Shown piece after piece: positions 3,286 to 12,508 of a stretch of DNA of 64,000 bases (the stretch's first letter is position 1; each line of letters opens with the position of its first letter). This stretch comes from Robertkochia flava. Lineage in GTDB: Bacteria; Bacteroidota; Bacteroidia; Flavobacteriales; Flavobacteriaceae. The notes beneath the pieces were generated by a model. The model worked only from the letters and a program-made list of their open reading frames with translations, made no database searches and was not told where the DNA came from. The translations under genes and the position numbers were made by a program. Where the stretch lies: contig NZ_JAINZT010000005.1 of NCBI RefSeq assembly GCF_020166515.1, positions 62,001 through 126,000 of the forward strand, written 5' to 3'.

Positions 3286-5128
3286 CTACCTGTATCCGGC
3301 TGCCTGAAGAGAAAACAATTCGGCATACAGAGATTTGTTCTTCATGAGTGCTTCATGCGTGCCGGTTTCCAGGATCCGCCCGTGTTTTAGCACCAAAATA
3401 CGATCTGCCATTCGTACCGTACTAAAACGGTGAGAAATGATGATGCTCGTTTTACCCCGGGTAAGTTCCATAAAGCGTTGAAATACCTCAAACTCGGCCT
3501 TGGCATCCAGGGCCGAAGTAGGTTCGTCCAGAATAAGCATATCTGCATCCTTCATGTATGCGCGGGCCAGGGCTATTTTTTGCCATTGTCCGCCCGAGAG
3601 TTCAATTCCTTTTTTAAAGCGTTTGCCCAGTTGTTGCTCAAATCCGTGTTCCAGTTCTTCCACAACTTCCGAGGCCAGGCTAAGTCGTGCCGCCTCCGTT
3701 ATTTTATCCAGGTCATCGAGTGCTTCGATCTTGCCAACGGCTATATTTTCTTTGACCGTAAATTCATAACGGAAGAAATCCTGAAAAATCACCCCAAACA
3801 TCTTCTGATACGCCACCCGGTCGAAGGTACTGATATCGGTCCCGTCCAGGAGGATGCGTCCTGATGATGGCTCATAAAACCGGAGTAACAGCTTGATGAG
3901 GGTGGTTTTTCCCGCACCGTTTTCACCCACAAATGCCATTTTTTCACCAGCCATTAATTTAAAACTGATATTGTCCAGTACCTTCTGGTTGCTTCCGGGA
4001 TAGGCAAAAGACACATTTTCAAACACGAATCCGTCGGTAATCCCTTTAGGAAGTTTGCTGGTATCAGGGGAGGTCTCTTTAGGTTTCAGATCGGTAAAGT
4101 CGAAATAGTCTTTCAGGTATAACGCACTTTCTGCTATTCTGGTAAGCCGGAAGAAAAAAGCCTGAAGGTTATTTCTCAGGCGGTTAAACGCACCACTTAA
4201 AAAGGTGAGTTCTCCAAGGGTGAGGACCCCGTTAAGCACCCTGGTAATAATAAGTACATAAGCTGCATAATAGGAGAGGGTCCCTAAAAGATTAAAAAAC
4301 ACCTGCATATGCTGTGCGCTTAATGGCAAGTTTTTTATTCAGGTTGTAATATTCATCAGATAATCTTTTAAAGCGGTCGGCGATGAAACCTGTCAATCCG
4401 AATAGTTTGATCTCCCGGGCCGTTTTGTCGTTGGCCCCTATATAACGAAGGTAGTCCAGTTCCCTGCGTTCTGTGGTCCAGCTGCGGGCCAGGGAATAGG
4501 AGGTGGCACTAAAATGGATCTCATTGATAAAGGAAGGTATGATGCTAACGATAAGAAGGGCAATGAGCCAGGGCTCAAAATAGATGAGACCGGCGATAAG
4601 GGAGACCATACTTACCAGGCTTTGAAATTGTCCCAGGATATTAGATAACAGGTTGACCCTGCTGCTGGTTTGGGTTCGGGCCCTTTCCAGTTTATCGTAA
4701 AAATCCGGGTCTTCCAGCTCACTGATCCCGATCTCACTGGTTTTTTTTATGATCCTGATGGAAGAGGCGTTCGCGTAAAGATCGCCCAATAGCCCGTCGG
4801 TAAGGGTGATTGCCCTGTTCACCAGGTCGGCAAACAATACGATAGCAAATTCAAGAGCTACATATTTCCAGAGCAGGTCTGTCGATGGGGAGGTGTTGTT
4901 CATCTGGGTAACGATCTCGTCAATGATGAGCTTCCCGGTCCATAAAATAGCTACGGGGGAGAATGCGTTTATGAGCCGGGCGGTAAAGTTGAGGAGAAAC
5001 ATCCTGCTGTGATGCTCCCAGATCTCCTTAAAAAACCGGGGAATGAAGCGGAAGGCCGAAAAGGAAGCCCGAAAGGAGGGCTTGCCGGCATTCAGGTCTT
5101 TTATGGATTTAAGGTTGTGTCTGGCCAA
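3286..5128 (-). pseudogene. ABC exporter (fused permease-ATPase), frameshifted
   Basis: Two overlapping frames together encode one ABC half-transporter of roughly 600 aa. The 5' part (5128-4292) carries the transmembrane domain, with membrane segments such as LVSMVSLIAGLIYF. The 3' part (down to 3286) carries the last membrane helices and the nucleotide-binding domain: Walker A GENGAGKTT, signature LSGGQ, Walker B MLILDEPTSALD and the switch HisH. The frame changes at a run of six A (4294-4299; six T in the gene). Removing one T joins the frames smoothly as AYAGVF-NLLGTLSYY. At the junction the codons are GTT TTT TAA, so a +1 slip on TTT-T would also join them. It is unclear whether this is a true pseudogene, an indel error or recoding. 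The likely role, if intact, is export of a lipid, peptide or drug. Confidence 0.85.
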
Positions 5129-5138
5129 GGGAGTCGGT

Positions 5139-5555
5139 TTAATTCTTTTTACTCATCTCCTGTTTTCGCATAGGCATGCTGTCAATACGGTCATAAACCA
5201 CTCCCGGAGAAGTGATTTTCTCCTCTTTAAGTTTAACGCTGCCATCCTTCCCGACCAGGATAACTCCGGAATACCGGGGAGAAATACTGAAATGGGTTCT
5301 CCAAACCCCGGCAGAGGCGGTCGTTGCTGTATTGCCGATCCAGACCTTATCTCCCGACAATGTAATGATCAGGAGGTCCCTGTCTGTGTTGGCTTCCGGC
5401 GCTTTAGAAAATAACTGGTAGTGCTCTGAAATACCGGGAGGTTCATGATTTGGGGTGACAATTATCAGTAAGCGATTTTTCCACCGGAACTGCTCCGGAG
5501 TAAATTCCTGTGTCAATGTGGTGCTCAATAGTATCAGAACCAGAGAAATGCTCAT
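5139..5555 (-). CDS. DUF4174 domain-containing protein, 138 aa
   Basis: The family is recognised by FRWKNRLLIIVTP near the N-terminus, the central strand YSGVILVGKDGSVKLKEE, and the C-terminal IDSMPMRKQEM. The fold resembles a thioredoxin-like or periredoxin-like domain, but no redox CxxC is present and the function is unknown. A short hydrophobic N-terminus (MSISLVLILLSTTLTQ) looks like a signal peptide, so it is probably exported. It lies 10 bases upstream of the broken ABC exporter and may share its transcript. Confidence 0.8.
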   Translation of the reverse strand: MSISLVLILLSTTLTQEFTPEQFRWKNRLLIIVTPNHEPPGISEHYQLFSKAPEANTDRDLLIITLSGDKVWIGNTATTASAGVWRTHFSISPRYSGVILVGKDGSVKLKEEKITSPGVVYDRIDSMPMRKQEMSKKN

Positions 5556-5623: not shown

Positions 5624-5650
5624 AAAAAGACCGCCGAGGGCAGTCTTTTT
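5624..5650 (-). terminator. Terminator of the type III PKS operon
   Basis: An imperfect hairpin AAAAAGACcGCC-GAG-GGCaGTCTTTTT lies about 90 bases after the last gene of the operon. On the minus transcript the one mismatch becomes a G-U pair, and the stem is followed by seven T, so it fits a terminator for the minus-strand operon. Confidence 0.75.
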
Positions 5651-5741
5651 ATGAATCTATGGTGAATTTTTAAAAGGGATCAAAAAATTAAATCGGATCA
5701 ATCTTTAACTAATATGTGAATATTAGGTCGTGATTCAACCA

Positions 5742-6284
5742 TCAGCTTATTGCAAAGGCTCCATAGCTGCCGTGATGGGTCAGGCTTACATAGCGATGTT
5801 CTTCTCCATTGCTCAAGGCCGGGATGCCCAATGTATTCTTATTAAGCTGGTAAGCACCTCCTGCATATTTCAACAATCTTGTTGTTAGTTCTTCACTTTG
5901 GGCCTTTTGACCGGGTCCCTTGAATTTTACGATTACAGAACTCAATTTTTTTTTATCCAGGTGCGCCTCAGAAATCACATATGCTGAGGTAACCCTAGTT
6001 TGAACATGACATTGAAAATTCTTGAATTTTGCAGTTGCGGAATTCTTATCCAGGGTACATTCGAATCCTTTGGGATTATAAAAACGGGCAGGGTACATTT
6101 GGGTGTGCAGTTTGTAGGAAGCTTCTTTTATACTCCATAATCGCCAAACCATAATAAAAGGGTTTTTGGCATCCCTGATATAACTTTGCTCTAATTCTGT
6201 AAAAAGCTTATCCAGGAATCTTGCCCGTTGCCAGTTAGAAGCATGCCGCGCTTCGTTAAGATCAACAATATCATTCCCCACCAT
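5742..6284 (-). CDS. 4'-phosphopantetheinyl transferase (AcpS/Sfp superfamily)
   Basis: The enzyme transfers 4'-phosphopantetheine from CoA to the Ser of an acyl carrier protein. The Mg/CoA-binding motif GNDIVDL is at residues 3-9 and the second motif WSIKEASYK at 50-58, with the catalytic-type Glu of KEA present. At 180 aa it is between single-domain AcpS (about 120) and Sfp (about 230). The start ATG overlaps the stop of the ACP gene by one base (TGATG), which points to translational coupling; a TTG just before it is the only alternative. As the last gene of the operon it most likely activates the operon's own ACP. Housekeeping AcpS is presumably elsewhere. Confidence 0.85.
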   Translation of the reverse strand: MVGNDIVDLNEARHASNWQRARFLDKLFTELEQSYIRDAKNPFIMVWRLWSIKEASYKLHTQMYPARFYNPKGFECTLDKNSATAKFKNFQCHVQTRVTSAYVISEAHLDKKKLSSVIVKFKGPGQKAQSEELTTRLLKYAGGAYQLNKNTLGIPALSNGEEHRYVSLTHHGSYGAFAIS

Positions 6285-6535
6285 CAAATGCCAAGTTTTA
6301 CAGCAATTATTTCCATGGCAGATTTTACGTCTAGCATTTGTTCCATGTCCTCATTTTCCAAACGGATATCAAATTCATCCTCAATATCCAATATGATATC
6401 CACAAGGTTTGCCGAGTTTACTTTGAGATCTTTGACGAAATCTGTGTCTTCGGACAAGTTTTTGAAAGCTTCTTCATCTTGAACATATGGTTCAATCAGT
6501 GGTTTTAATTTGGTGATCAATTGTTCCTTTGTCAT
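6284..6535 (-). CDS. Acyl carrier protein
   Basis: An 83-residue acidic helical protein. The prosthetic-group site lies in DLKVNSANLVDI, with Ser41 as the expected attachment point; the usual D-S-L of fatty-acid ACPs is replaced by N-S-A. The following helix II (LVDIILDIEDEFDI) is typical of carrier proteins. It sits 15 bases after the ketosynthase gene and overlaps the phosphopantetheinyl transferase gene. It is probably a pathway-dedicated carrier on which the chain for the type III PKS is built or tailored. Confidence 0.88.
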   Translation of the reverse strand: MTKEQLITKLKPLIEPYVQDEEAFKNLSEDTDFVKDLKVNSANLVDIILDIEDEFDIRLENEDMEQMLDVKSAMEIIAVKLGI

Positions 6536-6550
6536 ATTTTTTATGGTAAG

Positions 6551-7837
6551 TTACGCTATAAATCGCTTAAATAAAACACATGCATTGACATCTCCAAACC
6601 CGAAACTGGCCTTGGCAATAACCTCAATATCCCGATTAATTGCCTGCTGGGGTACCCTTGAAACATCGATGAGTTTCTTAATATCTTCGTGCAGATCTTC
6701 ACAATTCGCATTTGGAGCGATAAATTGCTCCTGTAGTTGCAGGATACTGGCTACACATTCAATTGATCCTGCAGCGGCCAGGCAATGGCCAACCAATGAT
6801 TTTGTAGAATTTACCAGGGGAAAGTCCTGGTGTTTTCTTCCCAGTGCCCTGGTCCAGTTTTCAATTTCCAAAGCGTCTTTAGATGTGGCTGTAAGATGAC
6901 CATTGATAGCATCCACCTCATTCGGGTTTATTTTAGAGTTTTTTAAGGCATTTTTAATACATCGCTGTACAGCTATTGGATTCGGCGCAGTCAGGCTGCC
7001 TCCCTGGCGTTGTCCGCCAGCATTAATGTCACCCCCTAATACCTCCGCATAAACAGTTGCACCACGTTCCATTGCAGATTTCAAGGATTCCAATACCAGG
7101 GCACCTGCACCGCTTCCGGGTACGAAACCTGAGGCAGACGCACTCATGGGTCGCGATCCTTTTTCCGGGTCATCATTGTGCTTGTAGGTCATTACCCGCA
7201 TAGCATCAAAACCTCCCCAAACATAGGGGCCATGATCACTACAGCTGCCCACCAGCATCCGTTTTGCGTTTCCGCTCCTGATTCTGTCATATCCCATCAA
7301 AATAGCTTCCGTACCGGTTGTACATGCCGATGAATTTGTGGTGACCTGATTTCCCAACCCGAGCATACCGCTTAAATAAGCGCTGATACCGCTGGTCATG
7401 GTTTGGAGGACTACCGTACTCCCCAGGCGCCTTACCTCGCCACCATCGAGTTTGTATATCGCTTCCCGGAATTTTTCAACACCCGACGTCCCTGCTCCAA
7501 AAATGAGCCCGGTATTATAATCCGGTTCACTATCGGGATCTGTTTCAAATCCCGCGTCCTTCCAGGCATCTATACCGGCAATGCATCCATACAATATCCC
7601 GGAACTGTTAAATCCTCTCAGTTGTAAATCTGTAAAGTATTGAGATTGCAATTCATGGGGAAGGTTTGGAACCCCTCCTATTTGACAGGAAAAATTGAGG
7701 TCTTTCAATTTTTGATGAAATGTGATTCCCGAGGTCCCATTTTGCAGCGCTTTGGTGAACTCAGGAATCCCAACACCATTGGGTGCAACTACTCCCATAC
7801 CTGTTACGACGACTCTTTTGTTTATATTATTTTCCAT
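6551..7837 (-). CDS. Beta-ketoacyl-ACP synthase (KAS II-like)
   Basis: A thiolase-fold elongating ketosynthase of 428 aa. The decarboxylating Claisen triad is intact: Cys172 in SSACTTG, His314 in INGHLTATSKD and His351 in STKSLVGH, with Lys346. The usual NAHGTGT around the first His has become NGHLTAT, so the enzyme is divergent from housekeeping FabF. It presumably extends acyl chains on the adjacent ACP with malonyl units. No malonyl transferase is encoded nearby, so FabD would have to be borrowed. Confidence 0.88.
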   Translation of the reverse strand: MENNINKRVVVTGMGVVAPNGVGIPEFTKALQNGTSGITFHQKLKDLNFSCQIGGVPNLPHELQSQYFTDLQLRGFNSSGILYGCIAGIDAWKDAGFETDPDSEPDYNTGLIFGAGTSGVEKFREAIYKLDGGEVRRLGSTVVLQTMTSGISAYLSGMLGLGNQVTTNSSACTTGTEAILMGYDRIRSGNAKRMLVGSCSDHGPYVWGGFDAMRVMTYKHNDDPEKGSRPMSASASGFVPGSGAGALVLESLKSAMERGATVYAEVLGGDINAGGQRQGGSLTAPNPIAVQRCIKNALKNSKINPNEVDAINGHLTATSKDALEIENWTRALGRKHQDFPLVNSTKSLVGHCLAAAGSIECVASILQLQEQFIAPNANCEDLHEDIKKLIDVSRVPQQAINRDIEVIAKASFGFGDVNACVLFKRFIA

Positions 7838-7894
7838 CAGCGTTGGGAATTTATCTGTTTAAAATACCGGTGATTGTCTGTTTTTAGAGATCCT

Positions 7895-8332
7895 TCAGGC
7901 CTTAAGCATTCCGGAAATTATTCCTCTTGCCACCAGGTCTCCATCTTCTGTAAGCATTTTTACCTTACATTTTAATTTATTAAAGCGGAACACTTCTTTT
8001 TCTGAATACACAGTTACTTTTTGACCGGGGAACACCGGTAAATAAAAATCCATTTGATGTGAGGTCAAGGCGATTTGTGTGCTTAGATCTTTCTTTAACT
8101 CATCTTTCATCAGGTAAATTCCAAGACACACCAAGCCAATCTGTGCCATGCATTCGGTAAGGATAACACCGGGGGTAACAGGATTGTTTTTAAAATGCCC
8201 TTGGTAAAAGTATTCATCCCTCCTGAATGTGTAGTGCCCTTCAATGGCATCTTCAGTTATCATCCCGATATCGTCAACAAACAAAAAAGGTCTTTGATAA
8301 GGTAATAATGCTATGATATCAGATGCTTTCAT
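7895..8332 (-). CDS. 3-hydroxyacyl-ACP dehydratase (FabZ-like hotdog fold)
   Basis: The protein has the FabZ architecture: LLPYQRPFLFVD at the N-terminus and the catalytic segment GHFKNNPVTPGVILTECMAQ, giving catalytic His46 and Glu60. Length is 145 aa, typical of FabZ. It would dehydrate 3-hydroxyacyl-ACP to trans-2-enoyl-ACP. It lies 57 bases before the ketosynthase gene and begins 1 base after the stop of the reductase gene, so it is firmly part of the operon. Confidence 0.88.
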   Translation of the reverse strand: MKASDIIALLPYQRPFLFVDDIGMITEDAIEGHYTFRRDEYFYQGHFKNNPVTPGVILTECMAQIGLVCLGIYLMKDELKKDLSTQIALTSHQMDFYLPVFPGQKVTVYSEKEVFRFNKLKCKVKMLTEDGDLVARGIISGMLKA

Positions 8333-8333
8333 A

Positions 8334-9128
8334 TTAAATTAGGTGTTCCCCGCCATCAACAGGAATTACCGTACCTGTGATCCAGGAGGCCTCGTCCTTT
8401 GAAAGTAAGTACACCGCGTTTGAAACGTCCTCCGGTGTGGTCAGGCGTTTATTTGGATTTCGTTTTAAAGTATGCTTGATAATCTTTTCGCTTCCGGGAA
8501 TCATTCTTAAAGAGGCAGTGTCTGTTACTCCTGCCTGAATACAGTTTGCCTTGATTCCATAGGGAGCAAACTCGTATGCCAGATTTCGGGTAATAGCCTC
8601 CAGTGTAACTTTGGCCGCCGAAACCGCCGCATATCCATTCCAGACCCTGGAAGTTCCTTCGCTGGTAAAACTTAATATCCGTGCATCGTCTGCAAACAAA
8701 TTTGCTTCAAAAATTGATTTGGCCCAGTCGTACAAACTAATTCCCATGGATGCTATGGTCAGGACAAAGTCCTGGTGTTGCAGAACTTCTTTTTCGTCGG
8801 AAACCATGGATTTCAGGTTGCCTTTGGCCAAACTATGGACCATGGTACGTATTTTTTGATCCCCCCCTAAGATCGATTGCAATTCCTGAACAATAGCCTC
8901 TCTTTTCTCTACCTTAAATGCATCACTGTTGAATGCCTTGAATTTTACACCCTCTTGCTCTATGCGATTAAATTCTTTTAATATGGCTTCTTCCTGAATT
9001 CTGGGATTTCGGTGTACGATACAAATATTCATGCCATGCCTGGCCAATTTTTTGGCAGTTGCCAAACCCAGGCCACTGCTGCCGCCAAGTATCAAGGCCC
9101 AATAATTTTTATCTTTGAATTCTTTCAT
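8334..9128 (-). CDS. Enoyl-ACP reductase-like SDR (FabI/FabL type)
   Basis: A short-chain dehydrogenase of 264 aa with nucleotide motif GGSSGLG (15-21). Three traits favour an enoyl reductase over a ketoreductase: the HSLAKG segment (compare HSIAFA of FabI), the catalytic Tyr166-x6-Lys173 spacing (YAAVSAAK) instead of the Y-x3-K of FabG, and the flanking sequence VTLEAITRNLAYE, close to FabL. The C-terminal ITGTVIPVDGG is normal for the family. It should saturate the enoyl-ACP made by the neighbouring dehydratase. A ketoreductase is missing from the operon, so a housekeeping FabG would be needed. Confidence 0.8.
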   Translation of the reverse strand: MKEFKDKNYWALILGGSSGLGLATAKKLARHGMNICIVHRNPRIQEEAILKEFNRIEQEGVKFKAFNSDAFKVEKREAIVQELQSILGGDQKIRTMVHSLAKGNLKSMVSDEKEVLQHQDFVLTIASMGISLYDWAKSIFEANLFADDARILSFTSEGTSRVWNGYAAVSAAKVTLEAITRNLAYEFAPYGIKANCIQAGVTDTASLRMIPGSEKIIKHTLKRNPNKRLTTPEDVSNAVYLLSKDEASWITGTVIPVDGGEHLI

Positions 9129-9129
9129 C

Positions 9130-10182
9130 TTACCACTCTAATAGTATGCTCTGGGCGGAAAAACCCGGTCCAAAACTTAGCATTATTCCTTTATCTCCCT
9201 TTGGCAGCTTTTTGTCCATAAACCTTTCCATAACATATAATACCGTGGCACTGCTCATATTCCCATACAGCCGTAAAACTTCTTTTGTATCATTGATGTT
9301 CTTGCCTAAAGCACCAAATAAATCCTCTACTGTCTGTAAAATTTTCTTTCCTCCGGGATGAAAAATCAAATGATCAATATCTTCAATAGTCAGATCATTG
9401 TTCTCAAGAAAGGGATAAATAATATTAGGAAAGTGATCGGCTATGGTCTGAGGAACCGATGGGTCTAAGATCATCTGCAATCCTGTATTCCTTAATTTAA
9501 ATCCCATCATATGTTCCGCATCATAGAAGTGATACATGGCTTCATCCCTGATCTCCGGGCCAACCTCATCCTGGTAAGACGAAAGAATTACGCTTGCGCA
9601 CCCATCACCAAAAATCGCCGCACTTACAATGTTGGCCATCGAATAATCGTCCAGCTGAAATGTTGCAGTGGGTGACTCGACAGCAATAACAGCAGCCCTT
9701 TTGTTGGGATTGGCCTTCAAAAAGTTTTTTGCATACAAGATGCCGGAGATCCCTGCTGCACATCCCATTTCGGTCACCGGCAATCGAACAATATCCTGCT
9801 TTAACTTTAAACGATTGATCAGATAAGCGTCCAGGGACGGAATCATGATACCCGTGCAGCTAACTGTTATGATATAGTCCAGGTCTGCCGGAGCCAAATG
9901 CGCCTTGTACAAAGCCTTCATTAAGCTGTTTTCTGCCAGTTTTATGGCTTCGTGGGCGTAAAGGTTATTTTTTTCTTCGAATGAAGTTCTTAAGAACACC
10001 TCTTCAGCATCCATAATGGAATAACGCCTGTCAACCGCTGCGTTCTCGAAAATCTTAAGGACTTTGCGCTTAAAACGTTCTTCCTGCCCCTCGAGCCAGA
10101 ATTCTACAAAGGGTAAAATATCCTTGGTTTCTCTTGTATATTTTGGAAGCTGCTTTGCAACCGATGTTATTTTTACTGCCAT
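9130..10182 (-). CDS. Type III polyketide synthase (chalcone/stilbene synthase family)
   Basis: The 350-residue protein has the complete Cys-His-Asn triad of type III PKS: Cys141 in TEMGCAAG, His275 in IFHPGG and Asn308 in YGNMSSATV. The C-terminal GPGFSAQSILL matches the GFGPG loop region. These enzymes extend an acyl starter with malonyl-CoA and cyclise it to resorcinols, pyrones or chromones. The next genes encode an acyl-chain-building set, so the likely starter is an ACP-bound fatty acyl chain and the product an alkylated aromatic or pyrone. The gene begins 73 bases after the methyltransferase gene and is followed after 1 base by the reductase. Confidence 0.9.
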   Translation of the reverse strand: MAVKITSVAKQLPKYTRETKDILPFVEFWLEGQEERFKRKVLKIFENAAVDRRYSIMDAEEVFLRTSFEEKNNLYAHEAIKLAENSLMKALYKAHLAPADLDYIITVSCTGIMIPSLDAYLINRLKLKQDIVRLPVTEMGCAAGISGILYAKNFLKANPNKRAAVIAVESPTATFQLDDYSMANIVSAAIFGDGCASVILSSYQDEVGPEIRDEAMYHFYDAEHMMGFKLRNTGLQMILDPSVPQTIADHFPNIIYPFLENNDLTIEDIDHLIFHPGGKKILQTVEDLFGALGKNINDTKEVLRLYGNMSSATVLYVMERFMDKKLPKGDKGIMLSFGPGFSAQSILLEW

Positions 10183-10254
10183 TCAGGATTTAATTAGCCA
10201 TTGGTAGCGGAATGCCCATTTCCAACAAATTTTAGATTCAAGATTCAGTTGCTT

Positions 10255-10893
10255 TTAAATGTTTTCCAACTCACGACGCTTGAATCCTCTTAAAATAGAG
10301 GTCAAACCATCCTGTACGATCATAGGGTTTGAAATCACCAGGCCCAACAGTTTAAACAATCCGTAGGCTACTTTATTTCGATGTAAATCATTGATAACGA
10401 TGCCCAGGCCTGCCTTCGAGGTCAATGTTTGTAAAAGTGAATGGATTTCTTCCTGATTCAAATGATGGAGAAACAAGGTGGAAAGCACAATATCGTATTT
10501 GAAGGTTTGGAATTCCTCGGAAAAAACATCCAGGTTCTTGAATGAAACTTCACCATAATCTTCGGAAAGCTCTAAGGCATAGCTAATGGCGTCCTGGTTG
10601 GCATCAATGCCGATCAGATTAAAAGAATACTTATGTTTTCTGCCATATTCAGCAACCAGTCTTAACATATTCCCATGACCACAACCTAAATCTATGATGG
10701 TATAGGTTTGGTCTTTGGGCTGTCCTTTCAGTAAATAACGCAGACCATCCAGGGTTGTGGAGTTTCCCCCTAACCACCTGTTAATTGTTCCCAGTTTTTC
10801 CAGGCTGTCACGAAGTAACTCCCCTTTCATGGAAAAATCATCCATGAGTTCCGTCGAATTGCTTCTGCTTGTAGTATCTGCAAATAACCTCAT
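10255..10893 (-). CDS. SAM-dependent methyltransferase (class I)
   Basis: Motif I IIDLGCGHGNM (67-76) binds S-adenosylmethionine. Further class I features are LIGIDANQDAI (motif II) and DIVLSTLFLHHL (motif IV). Length is 212 aa. It follows the flavoprotein gene with a one-base overlap (stop and start share base 10893). In the well-known srsABC operon of Streptomyces griseus a methyltransferase and a flavoprotein act on a type III PKS product; by analogy this enzyme would O- or C-methylate the aromatic ring. The substrate is inferred only. Confidence 0.85.
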   Translation of the reverse strand: MRLFADTTSRSNSTELMDDFSMKGELLRDSLEKLGTINRWLGGNSTTLDGLRYLLKGQPKDQTYTIIDLGCGHGNMLRLVAEYGRKHKYSFNLIGIDANQDAISYALELSEDYGEVSFKNLDVFSEEFQTFKYDIVLSTLFLHHLNQEEIHSLLQTLTSKAGLGIVINDLHRNKVAYGLFKLLGLVISNPMIVQDGLTSILRGFKRRELENI

Positions 10894-12023
10894 TAAGCTT
10901 TCATAGGTTTTCCATGTGTCATTCTAATTATCAAGGGAACCAAAAAGGGCACATATCTTAAAATTACAAGTAATTTTGGTGCCAACCAATCCTGACTGAA
11001 TAAATAGGCGATCACACGACCTGTTTTTAACCTCAGCCTGAACGTATTATTCCAGGTTTTGGCATACTGTCGTTCCAATTCTGCTCTTGTATTTATTTTC
11101 TTATGATGATAGTCAATAATCAGATCTGATGCCAATTGAGCACTTCTTATGGCCATTGCCATGCCATTTCCACAAAGCGGATGAATCATTCCCGCCGAAT
11201 CACCGCACATAATCATATGGTTTTCAATTGGATTTTTCGGCAAAAAGGAAATTTGACTGATGACCAATGGATTATCAAATTCAGGAATGGAATTGAGGAA
11301 AATTTTCTTTAAGGCAAGATTTTTGAAAATAATTTCATTTTGAAACGCGTCGATATCCTTATAGTTCTTAAATGCCTTATAGTTGGTTATGTAGCACAGA
11401 TTAATTTGGCCGTTCTCAACTTTGGATACCCCGCAATACCCCCCTTTAAAATTGTGAAGGGCCACCTTGTTTTCAGGAAAATTACCGGATACATGAACCT
11501 TTATACCCAGGTATGGCGATTTCTGCGCAATGAAAGAACGCTGTAACTTAAGATCTAAATTAGATCTTTTCCCAAAGGCCCCGATGACCACTTTAGCATC
11601 GAAGTTTTGATTGGATTTGGTATGCACTTGAAAAGAATCATTTTCAAACACTACATCGTTCACAGTATCCTTCTCTACGCAAACCCCTTGCCTCAATGCT
11701 AATTGGTAGAGCTGGAAATCCATTTCATATCGGCTCATTCCAAATCCGCCAAGGGGTAATTCAGCCTTAATGGTCTTGTTGTTATGAGTGGTCAGCTCAA
11801 AATGGGTGATGCGTTGGGCACCAAATTTAAATGGGTCGAACCCTAACTGGTTTAAATACGGTAATACTTCATTAGATATATATTCACCACAGACCTTGTG
11901 TTTGGGATAATTGTTTTTTTCAATAAGAAGTACCTTGAAATTATACTTTCCCAAATGAATGGCACACGTTAACCCGGCCAGTCCTCCTCCAATAATTATC
12001 ACTTCAAATCGTTTACTTGTCAT
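10893..12023 (-). CDS. FAD-dependent oxidoreductase (GGR/monooxygenase-like)
   Basis: First gene of the operon, 376 aa. The FAD-binding motif IIGGGLAGL is at 10-18, followed by the loop PKHKVCGEYIS, which is typical of the geranylgeranyl-reductase-like group, and later the second FAD motif MCGDSAGMIHPLCGNGMAMA. The family includes prenyl and acyl-chain reductases and aromatic hydroxylases. In the context of a type III PKS and a methyltransferase, ring hydroxylation toward a quinol or quinone is the most attractive role, but double-bond reduction is also possible. A near -7 box, CAACTTTG (minus strand, plus coordinates 12035-12042), lies 12 bases before the start. Confidence 0.8.
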   Translation of the reverse strand: MTSKRFEVIIIGGGLAGLTCAIHLGKYNFKVLLIEKNNYPKHKVCGEYISNEVLPYLNQLGFDPFKFGAQRITHFELTTHNNKTIKAELPLGGFGMSRYEMDFQLYQLALRQGVCVEKDTVNDVVFENDSFQVHTKSNQNFDAKVVIGAFGKRSNLDLKLQRSFIAQKSPYLGIKVHVSGNFPENKVALHNFKGGYCGVSKVENGQINLCYITNYKAFKNYKDIDAFQNEIIFKNLALKKIFLNSIPEFDNPLVISQISFLPKNPIENHMIMCGDSAGMIHPLCGNGMAMAIRSAQLASDLIIDYHHKKINTRAELERQYAKTWNNTFRLRLKTGRVIAYLFSQDWLAPKLLVILRYVPFLVPLIIRMTHGKPMKA

Positions 12024-12477: not shown

Positions 12478-12508
12478 AAAAAAGACCGTCAGGAAGACGG
12501 TCTTTTTT
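12478..12508 (-). terminator. Rho-independent terminator after the zinc-ribbon-like gene
   Basis: A perfect 13-bp stem (AAAAAAGACCGTC and its complement) with loop AGGAA, flanked by A and T runs on both sides, 15 bases after the minus-strand stop. It is symmetrical and could work in both directions. Confidence 0.9.

Follow-up and report, generated by a model that had tools for sequence, protein, structure and literature searches.

The window analysed here is a 64,000-nucleotide stretch of the Robertkochia flava genome (contig NZ_JAINZT010000005.1, positions 62,001 to 126,000) and carries an operon of eight colinear minus-strand open reading frames. In transcription order these encode a flavoprotein (FMO), a methyltransferase (MT), a type III polyketide synthase (PKS), an enoyl reductase (ER), a dehydratase (DH), a ketosynthase (KS), an acyl carrier protein (ACP) and a 4'-phosphopantetheinyl transferase (PPT) (Table 1). 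A sequence-only reading had proposed the same eight genes, and the list of open reading frames together with family assignments by Pfam and NCBIfam confirmed them. Neighbouring genes overlap by up to 4 nt or are separated by up to 72 nt, with stop-start overlaps of TAATG between FMO and MT and of TGATG between ACP and PPT. The terminator that had been placed at the end of the operon is likewise present, as a hairpin with U-run 3' of the PPT gene; it is absent from the list of a terminator consensus scan. None of the NCBIfam matches listed for the eight proteins (the best 25 for ER and FMO) reached its curated cut-off.

Table 1. Coordinates of the operon genes and of associated features in the window.
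Feature	Position	Strand	Basis or remarks
FMO: flavin adenine dinucleotide (FAD)-dependent oxidoreductase, monooxygenase fold	10893..12023	-	Pfam/NCBIfam, AlphaFold model; predicted ring hydroxylase
MT: class I S-adenosylmethionine-dependent methyltransferase	10255..10893	-	Pfam Methyltransf_31/25; predicted to methylate a ring
PKS: type III PKS, distinct subfamily	9130..10182	-	Cys141, His275, Asn308; model near Pks11, CylI
ER: FabL/FabI-type short-chain dehydrogenase/reductase, enoyl-ACP reductase	8334..9128	-	Y166-x6-K173
DH: FabZ/FabA-like hot-dog dehydratase	7895..8332	-	His46, Glu60
KS: KAS II-like ketosynthase, cassette lineage	6551..7837	-	Cys172, His314, His351, GHLTAT motif
ACP	6284..6535	-	Phosphopantetheine Ser41, N-S-A context
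PPT	5742..6287	-	WSIKEASYK motif; alternative start may be ATG at 6284
Hairpin with U-run, operon 3' end	~5625..5651	-	Fold and DNA
Terminator-like hairpin between CdsZ gene and operon	12478..12508	-	Terminator scan
Segment (ABC transporter genes, DUF4174 gene, operon) without match in same-genus genome	3263..12519	.	Genome comparison

The operon is widespread in the family. At a threshold of at least 55% identity its PKS was found in 103 of 299 Flavobacteriaceae genomes (in one, G150, in two pieces), and the remaining matches, among those listed, reached at most 33%. In a phylum sample of 395 genomes, 33 carried a PKS of at least 66% identity and the other listed matches stayed at or below 36%. 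Three of these 33 carriers (G536, G375 and G428) lie outside the family, which suggests that the operon moved between families by transfer. The best 80 of 573 encoding stretches name Winogradskyella, Polaribacter, Tenacibaculum, Psychroserpens, Gelidibacter, Lacinutrix and Flagellimonas as carriers; four of the 80 come from metagenome bins assigned to Cytophagales, Cyclobacteriaceae or Saprospiraceae (74-80% identity), where binning errors are possible. Among 163 plasmid records that match the PKS, none did so at 60% identity or above.

For synteny, 143 loci were collected (60 from the family sample, 80 named ones and three from outside the family). A PKS of at least 50% identity was present in 142 of them (L094 was dropped), 123 had enough flank and 115 remained after removal of identical PKS DNA. 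Besides the named loci, this set covers no more than 59 of the 103 carriers in the family. A match was counted only if it lay on the strand of the PKS and within 8 kb of it; the PKS itself is present by construction because the loci were picked by it. The order FMO-MT-PKS-(ER)-DH-KS-ACP-(PPT) was unchanged in all 115 distinct loci, which excludes a chance arrangement. Scattering of the genes in relatives, named in the sequence-only reading as evidence against its own proposal, was checked and not seen. FMO and MT were present throughout, KS and ACP in 113 loci, DH in 112, ER in 94 and PPT in 86, so that ER and PPT were the genes most often missing (21 and 29 loci, respectively). On an operon tree (FastTree), the presence of ER requires 12 changes, 10 of them forced by well-supported branches. 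In L089, DH is missing while KS and ACP are present. The catalytic residues that had been named for PKS, KS, DH and ER are all in place and invariant wherever the gene was found (PKS 115/115, KS 113/113, DH 112/112 and ER 94/94). Ser41 of the ACP is kept in 113/113 loci, with Asn before it in every case and Ala after it in 111; this serine usually stands in a D-S-L context.

A second MT gene, 31-33% identical to the operon MT, lies between ACP and PPT in L115 and L126 and after PPT in L174, hinting at a doubly methylated product. Apparently broken genes occur in otherwise colinear operons (FMO in L128, FMO and PKS in L093). In 20 of the 115 loci (e.g. L042:2404-4653) the gene downstream, in the same orientation as the operon, encodes an MMPL-family transporter, which fits lipid export. 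Upstream, 30 loci hold a fused E1 dehydrogenase (BCKDH-like) gene (e.g. L088:3072-5078). We do not claim it as supplier of branched starters, since two genes intervene and the gene marks one chromosomal location; the two small genes between it and the operon are lipoprotein-like by eye.

The PKS is assigned to the type III enzymes by its Cys-His-Asn triad and by the chalcone synthase fold of its AlphaFold model (pLDDT 83.8, 24-row alignment). Pks11 is its nearest solved relative both by sequence and by fold (Z 39.9, rmsd 2.5, 336 aligned), followed in the fold ranking by CylI (Z 38.8, rmsd 2.7, 340 aligned; about 26% identity) and by many other structures at Z 36-37, Gcs included. Its best NCBIfam match is DpgA, 3,5-dihydroxyphenylacetyl-CoA synthase (173.7 bits, cut-off 425), and it scores 26.2 bits on the DarB model NF053539 (cut-off 550). 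ArsC, which carries the Gly of the ArsB Trp281/ArsC Gly switch (PMC6274091), was not among the 60 listed sequence matches. For ER, FabL is both the nearest solved structure (3oic) and the best NCBIfam match.

The MT scores 117.8 bits on the NCBIfam model PRK06202 (cut-off 243), and none of its Pfam matches is of the ICMT type. The FMO scores 109.6 bits on TIGR02032 (cut-off 158.8). Flavin halogenases and aromatic hydroxylases are the best folds for its AlphaFold model (pLDDT 82.2), with Z from 35.7 to about 31 over 50 rows; halogenases lead at 35.7 and 3-hydroxybenzoate 6-hydroxylase follows at 33.3, so the hydroxylases stand within a few Z of the top halogenases. Foldseek also listed 3oz2, a geranylgeranyl-reductase-like chain, for this model; it is not in the 50-row ranking. 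None of 115 aligned FMO segments contains WxWxIP, which we take to be the motif of flavin-dependent tryptophan-type halogenases, and for this reason we read the FMO as a probable hydroxylase.

The MT and FMO pair also occurs at other type III PKS loci, found in 14 genomes from other families (11 in the same class and three further away). At these loci an MT and an FMO adjoin a PKS that is 22-32% identical to the operon PKS (median 27.5%). A UbiA-family gene is present at 10 of the 14 loci (one checked by Pfam, the rest by clustering). When these genomes were searched with the operon proteins, the genome-wide best match of the MT adjoined the type III PKS in 14/14, and that of the FMO lay at the PKS locus in all 12 genomes with a hit; G360 and G433 gave no FMO match at 1e-10. 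Since the genomes had been chosen because an MT adjoins their PKS, the new information is that they hold no better match elsewhere. Median identities to the operon proteins were 31.5% for the MT and 39.9% for the FMO, the latter close to the FMO identity within the comparison group (40.2%). Among the PKSs, in contrast, a stem of 2.43 changes per column separates the two groups (quickly built trees that carried long-branch warnings). Most simply, a single tailoring pair would have been combined with type III PKSs from two different subfamilies. The UbiA / type III PKS / MT / FMO loci in other Bacteroidota (L222-L227, L231-L234) possibly represent an unreported prenylated-polyketide quinone pathway in their own right. 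A search of the window's own genome with a partial UbiA query of 150 residues found no homologue, an empty answer that shows nothing here. A second comparison group of PKSs (median 30.9% identity) lies beside ICMT-type methyltransferases (13 loci clustered, two of them checked by Pfam).

The remainder of the operon, the ER-DH-KS-ACP-PPT set, recurs as a cassette. Searching the 395 phylum genomes with the KS at E 1e-75 returned 38 genomes, namely the 33 PKS carriers (60-100% identity) and five others (46-52%), so that a PKS of at least 66% and a cassette KS of at least 60% coincide exactly in the same 33 genomes. In two of the five others (L256 and L257) the ER-DH-KS-ACP-PPT set is intact and divergent from a dialkylresorcinol gene set. 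L256 exceeds the cut-offs for DarB (634.8, cut-off 550), DarG (197.8, cut-off 170) and DarH (453.7, cut-off 300); the presumed DarA of L256 (12052-12954), named by eye only, matched no Pfam or NCBIfam model, and the Dar-type genes of L257 were matched to those of L256 by blastp only. The other three loci (L258:6824-11188, L259:8596-13745 and L260:7605-11855) hold the cassette without PPT, and with ER only in L259, between GNAT-like and GT2 genes, of which the neighbours in L259 were checked by profile; this is a third use of the cassette.

A tree of KSs places 26 cassette KSs in one group (SH-aLRT 100, stem 2.87; quick tree, with a long-branch warning), apart from the genome's own FabF and from 14 KSs taken from five flavobacterial DarB clusters. 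All 113 operon KSs and all five other cassette KSs carry GHLT, whereas the 15 comparators have HGT or HAT. By its KS group, its GHLT motif and its colinear neighbours, the window operon belongs to this cassette lineage. The phosphopantetheine site reads N-S-A-N in L256 and L257, N-S-M in L259 and D-S-F in L258 and L260. Descent of the cassette from the polyene genes of flexirubin clusters was considered and is not supported by KS identities, which are 23-32% to the KSs of the five DarB clusters and 33-35% to the genome's own FabF. In two of its three contexts the cassette is partnered with a ring-forming system, either the resorcinol-forming DarB or the type III PKS, and in the third it has GNAT-like and glycosyltransferase genes as neighbours; supply of acyl chains would be the common denominator. 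Taken together, these comparisons show the operon to be a mosaic: its tailoring pair recurs at other, mostly UbiA-bearing type III PKS loci, its tail cassette recurs in dialkylresorcinol clusters, and its PKS forms a subfamily of its own.

With a probability of about one half, we propose that the operon makes a lipid in which a fatty tail is attached to a small oxygenated ring. The PPT, recognised by its motifs, would activate the ACP, on which KS, DH and ER, together with a ketoreductase borrowed from primary metabolism, would extend a chain. The PKS would take the acyl group from the ACP, extend it with malonyl-CoA and close an alkylresorcinol-type ring, and MT and FMO would methylate and hydroxylate this ring to give a methylated alkyl-hydroquinone or quinone-like lipid. 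That the chain-building set feeds the ring-forming enzyme had been suggested by the sequence-only reading; the idea gains independent support from the cassette beside DarB, DarG and DarH, with acyl transfer itself still a prediction. CylI, the next fold match, was solved with a resorcinol product. According to the portions of the literature retrieved, acyl-ACP is accepted by several type III PKSs, namely Gcs, SCO7671 and ArsB/ArsC (PMC6274091), PKSs from planctomycete operons that pair them with an MT and an oxidoreductase gave alkylresorcinols in C. glutamicum, and the cyanobacterial hidABC operon yields hierridin B (PMC10896814, PMC8086630). The predicted hydroxylase and MT fit hierridin B, which is described as ring-hydroxylated and O-methylated; for the Gimesia enzyme, C-methylation was inferred and the role of the oxidoreductase left open in the text seen (PMC10896814).

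Several observations weigh against this proposal. No KS, ACP or DH lies within 8 kb of the PKS in L044 and L080 (L044 has a partial DH match elsewhere on the contig). No ketoreductase was recognised in the operon, where the ER has FabL as its best match and a Y-x6-K spacing; as ER is also missing from 21 loci, the cassette by itself does not suffice for a saturated chain. Pks11, the closest structure, is a pyrone-forming enzyme. By eye, Pro171 and Phe175 of the PKS align with the tunnel residues Cys205 and Ala209 of Pks18 (residue names from a figure legend in PMC6274091), so that a Pks18-type tunnel is not obviously open. A basic pair of the PKS at 279/280, after the catalytic His, had been considered as an ACP-docking signature and was dropped, because comparison PKSs without the cassette have it too (9/14 of the UbiA-type group and 5/12 of the ICMT group are basic at both positions), and it is thus no evidence of ACP use. 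The assignment of the FMO as a hydroxylase, based on fold and on the missing motif, is also less than certain.

The PKS might receive its chain as proposed and close an alkyl-alpha-pyrone instead, which MT and FMO would then decorate. This is possible though rather unlikely. Both sequence and fold place the alkylpyrone synthase Pks11 closest among solved structures, and the closer of the two PKS comparison groups adjoins ICMT-type methyltransferases, an arrangement we take to be that of the BpsA/BpsB pyrone operon. However, MT and FMO are shared with loci most of which (10/14) carry UbiA, an enzyme that normally acts on an aromatic ring; CylI makes a resorcinol, and so does DarB, the cassette's other ring partner (PMC3992019, as far as retrieved). 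The direction could also be reversed, with the PKS making an aromatic thioester starter that is loaded onto the ACP and elongated by KS, DH and ER as in aryl polyenes. The DpgA match agrees with this order, and the loci that lack ER would then yield a polyene. We nevertheless regard it as improbable, since the DpgA score falls far below its cut-off, the cassette KS does not fall with the KSs of DarB clusters, the other two contexts of the cassette are more simply explained by a chain supplier, and neither an aryl-CoA ligase nor an ammonia-lyase was found among the eight operon proteins by Pfam and NCBIfam.

A different objection concerns the coupling itself: the cassette could adjust general fatty acids while the PKS uses ordinary acyl-CoA, the shared operon serving regulation only. 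Planctomycete and cyanobacterial PKSs of such type are indeed described without a cassette in the retrieved text of PMC10896814 and PMC8086630, and L044 and L080, where no KS, ACP or DH was found within 8 kb of the PKS, agree with this view. The probability of this view is low, given that PKS and cassette are associated in 113/115 loci and in the same 33/395 genomes, that the ACP is dedicated and has an unusual N-S-A site, that PPT accompanies it in 86/115 loci, and that the cassette recurs beside DarB. An accessory part in flexirubin biosynthesis is nearly refuted. The cassette does adjoin Dar genes in two other genomes, and DarB exceeds its cut-off in 29/103 PKS-positive and 23/196 other family genomes (Fisher p 0.0006, ignoring relatedness); by the same counts the converse idea, mutual exclusion of operon and flexirubin, is not seen. 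Yet 74 of the 103 PKS-positive genomes lack DarB above the cut-off, the window's own among them (no match at E 1e-40), and the KSs of the five flavobacterial DarB clusters belong to other groups.

Returning to the proposed ring lipid with a fatty tail, we tentatively suggest a further step that we think doubtful in its full form. The product could be a lipoquinone whose tail is purpose-built from fatty acid instead of isoprenoid, the tail module having been swapped and the head-group chemistry kept, with a redox or barrier role in the membrane. The appeal of this idea is that the same MT and FMO pair is joined to a UbiA prenyltransferase in one lineage and to the ACP cassette in another. If true, about a third of the sampled family genomes would encode a membrane redox or barrier lipid of this kind.

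Among described systems, hidABC (hierridin, cyanobacteria) and the Planctomycetota operon are the closest in their three-gene logic: both likewise combine one MT, one FAD oxidoreductase and one type III PKS whose product is an alkylresorcinol (PMC8086630, PMC10896814), a gene content found in one operon in 115/115 of our loci. As described in the text available, they differ in having no KS, DH, ER, ACP or PPT, and the likeness drawn here is one of gene content, not of sequence. The UbiA-type Bacteroidota loci have the same MT and FMO and differ by another PKS and by UbiA, in most of them, in place of the cassette. The dialkylresorcinol/flexirubin cluster (DarA/DarB, DarG, DarH), which the cassette adjoins in L256 and L257, would like the operon make an alkylated resorcinol; its ring, however, is formed by DarB/DarA and not by a type III PKS, and five flavobacterial clusters of this kind use other KSs.

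The parallels named in the sequence-only reading fared differently. Streptomyces srsABC, presumably a type III PKS, an MT and a flavoprotein as in the window operon, is not known to have acyl-chain genes, and it turned out to be a poor parallel because the operon MT is a soluble class I enzyme without ICMT match, whereas we take SrsB to be ICMT-type. ArsA and ArsD of Azotobacter, which we take to be multidomain fatty-acid synthases, have no counterpart beside the window PKS. In the retrieved text of PMC6274091, Azotobacter arsABCD hands carrier-bound fatty chains to type III PKSs, as proposed for the operon; its ACP is a domain of the fatty-acid synthase ArsA, in contrast to the discrete KS, DH, ER and ACP of the window operon, with MT and FMO. 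A further parallel, CylI of cylindrocyclophane biosynthesis, is resorcinol-forming and fed by carrier-bound chains, which come from type I PKSs (PMC8086630, as far as retrieved).

The combination of type III PKS, MT and oxidoreductase is thus already known, and the variant lies in the discrete ACP cassette and the mosaic, whose origin is new here. No described product or gene set of this kind appeared in the titles and abstracts retrieved, a partial coverage with subscription papers mostly outside. In the parts of genome surveys that were retrieved, type III PKS clusters make up 10.74% of clusters in Flavobacteriaceae (PMC10734526) and 0.39 per marine strain (PMC7440613), and flavobacterial ones are also counted in PMC9323603. 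Should our proposal hold, many of these clusters could be explained by the operon, which would offer a type II route of discrete proteins that feeds a type III PKS and is open to testing, as well as a movable acyl-tail cassette whose sequence tag, the GHLT KS, could be used to find tail-bearing lipids elsewhere.

The only other genome of the genus in the sample, G223, lacks a match to the segment around the operon. There the flanks of the segment in Table 1 are joined, with 86 nt and a hairpin between them, and the flanking DNA is 69-73% identical. Besides the operon, the unmatched segment holds the DUF4174 gene and the ABC transporter (window 3286-5555). The G+C content is 41.6% for the operon and 45.7% for the window. 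With two genomes compared, the absence in G223 would fit gain or loss alike. A scan for sigma-70-like promoters gave 25 hits compared with 24.0 in shuffles, no excess, and upstream of the FMO gene there was no exact match to TTTG-N17-23-TAnnTTTG, presumably the Bacteroidetes promoter pattern. Elsewhere in the window, positions 647-1993 encode a flavoprotein that by eye is of the kynurenine 3-monooxygenase type and is unrelated to the operon.

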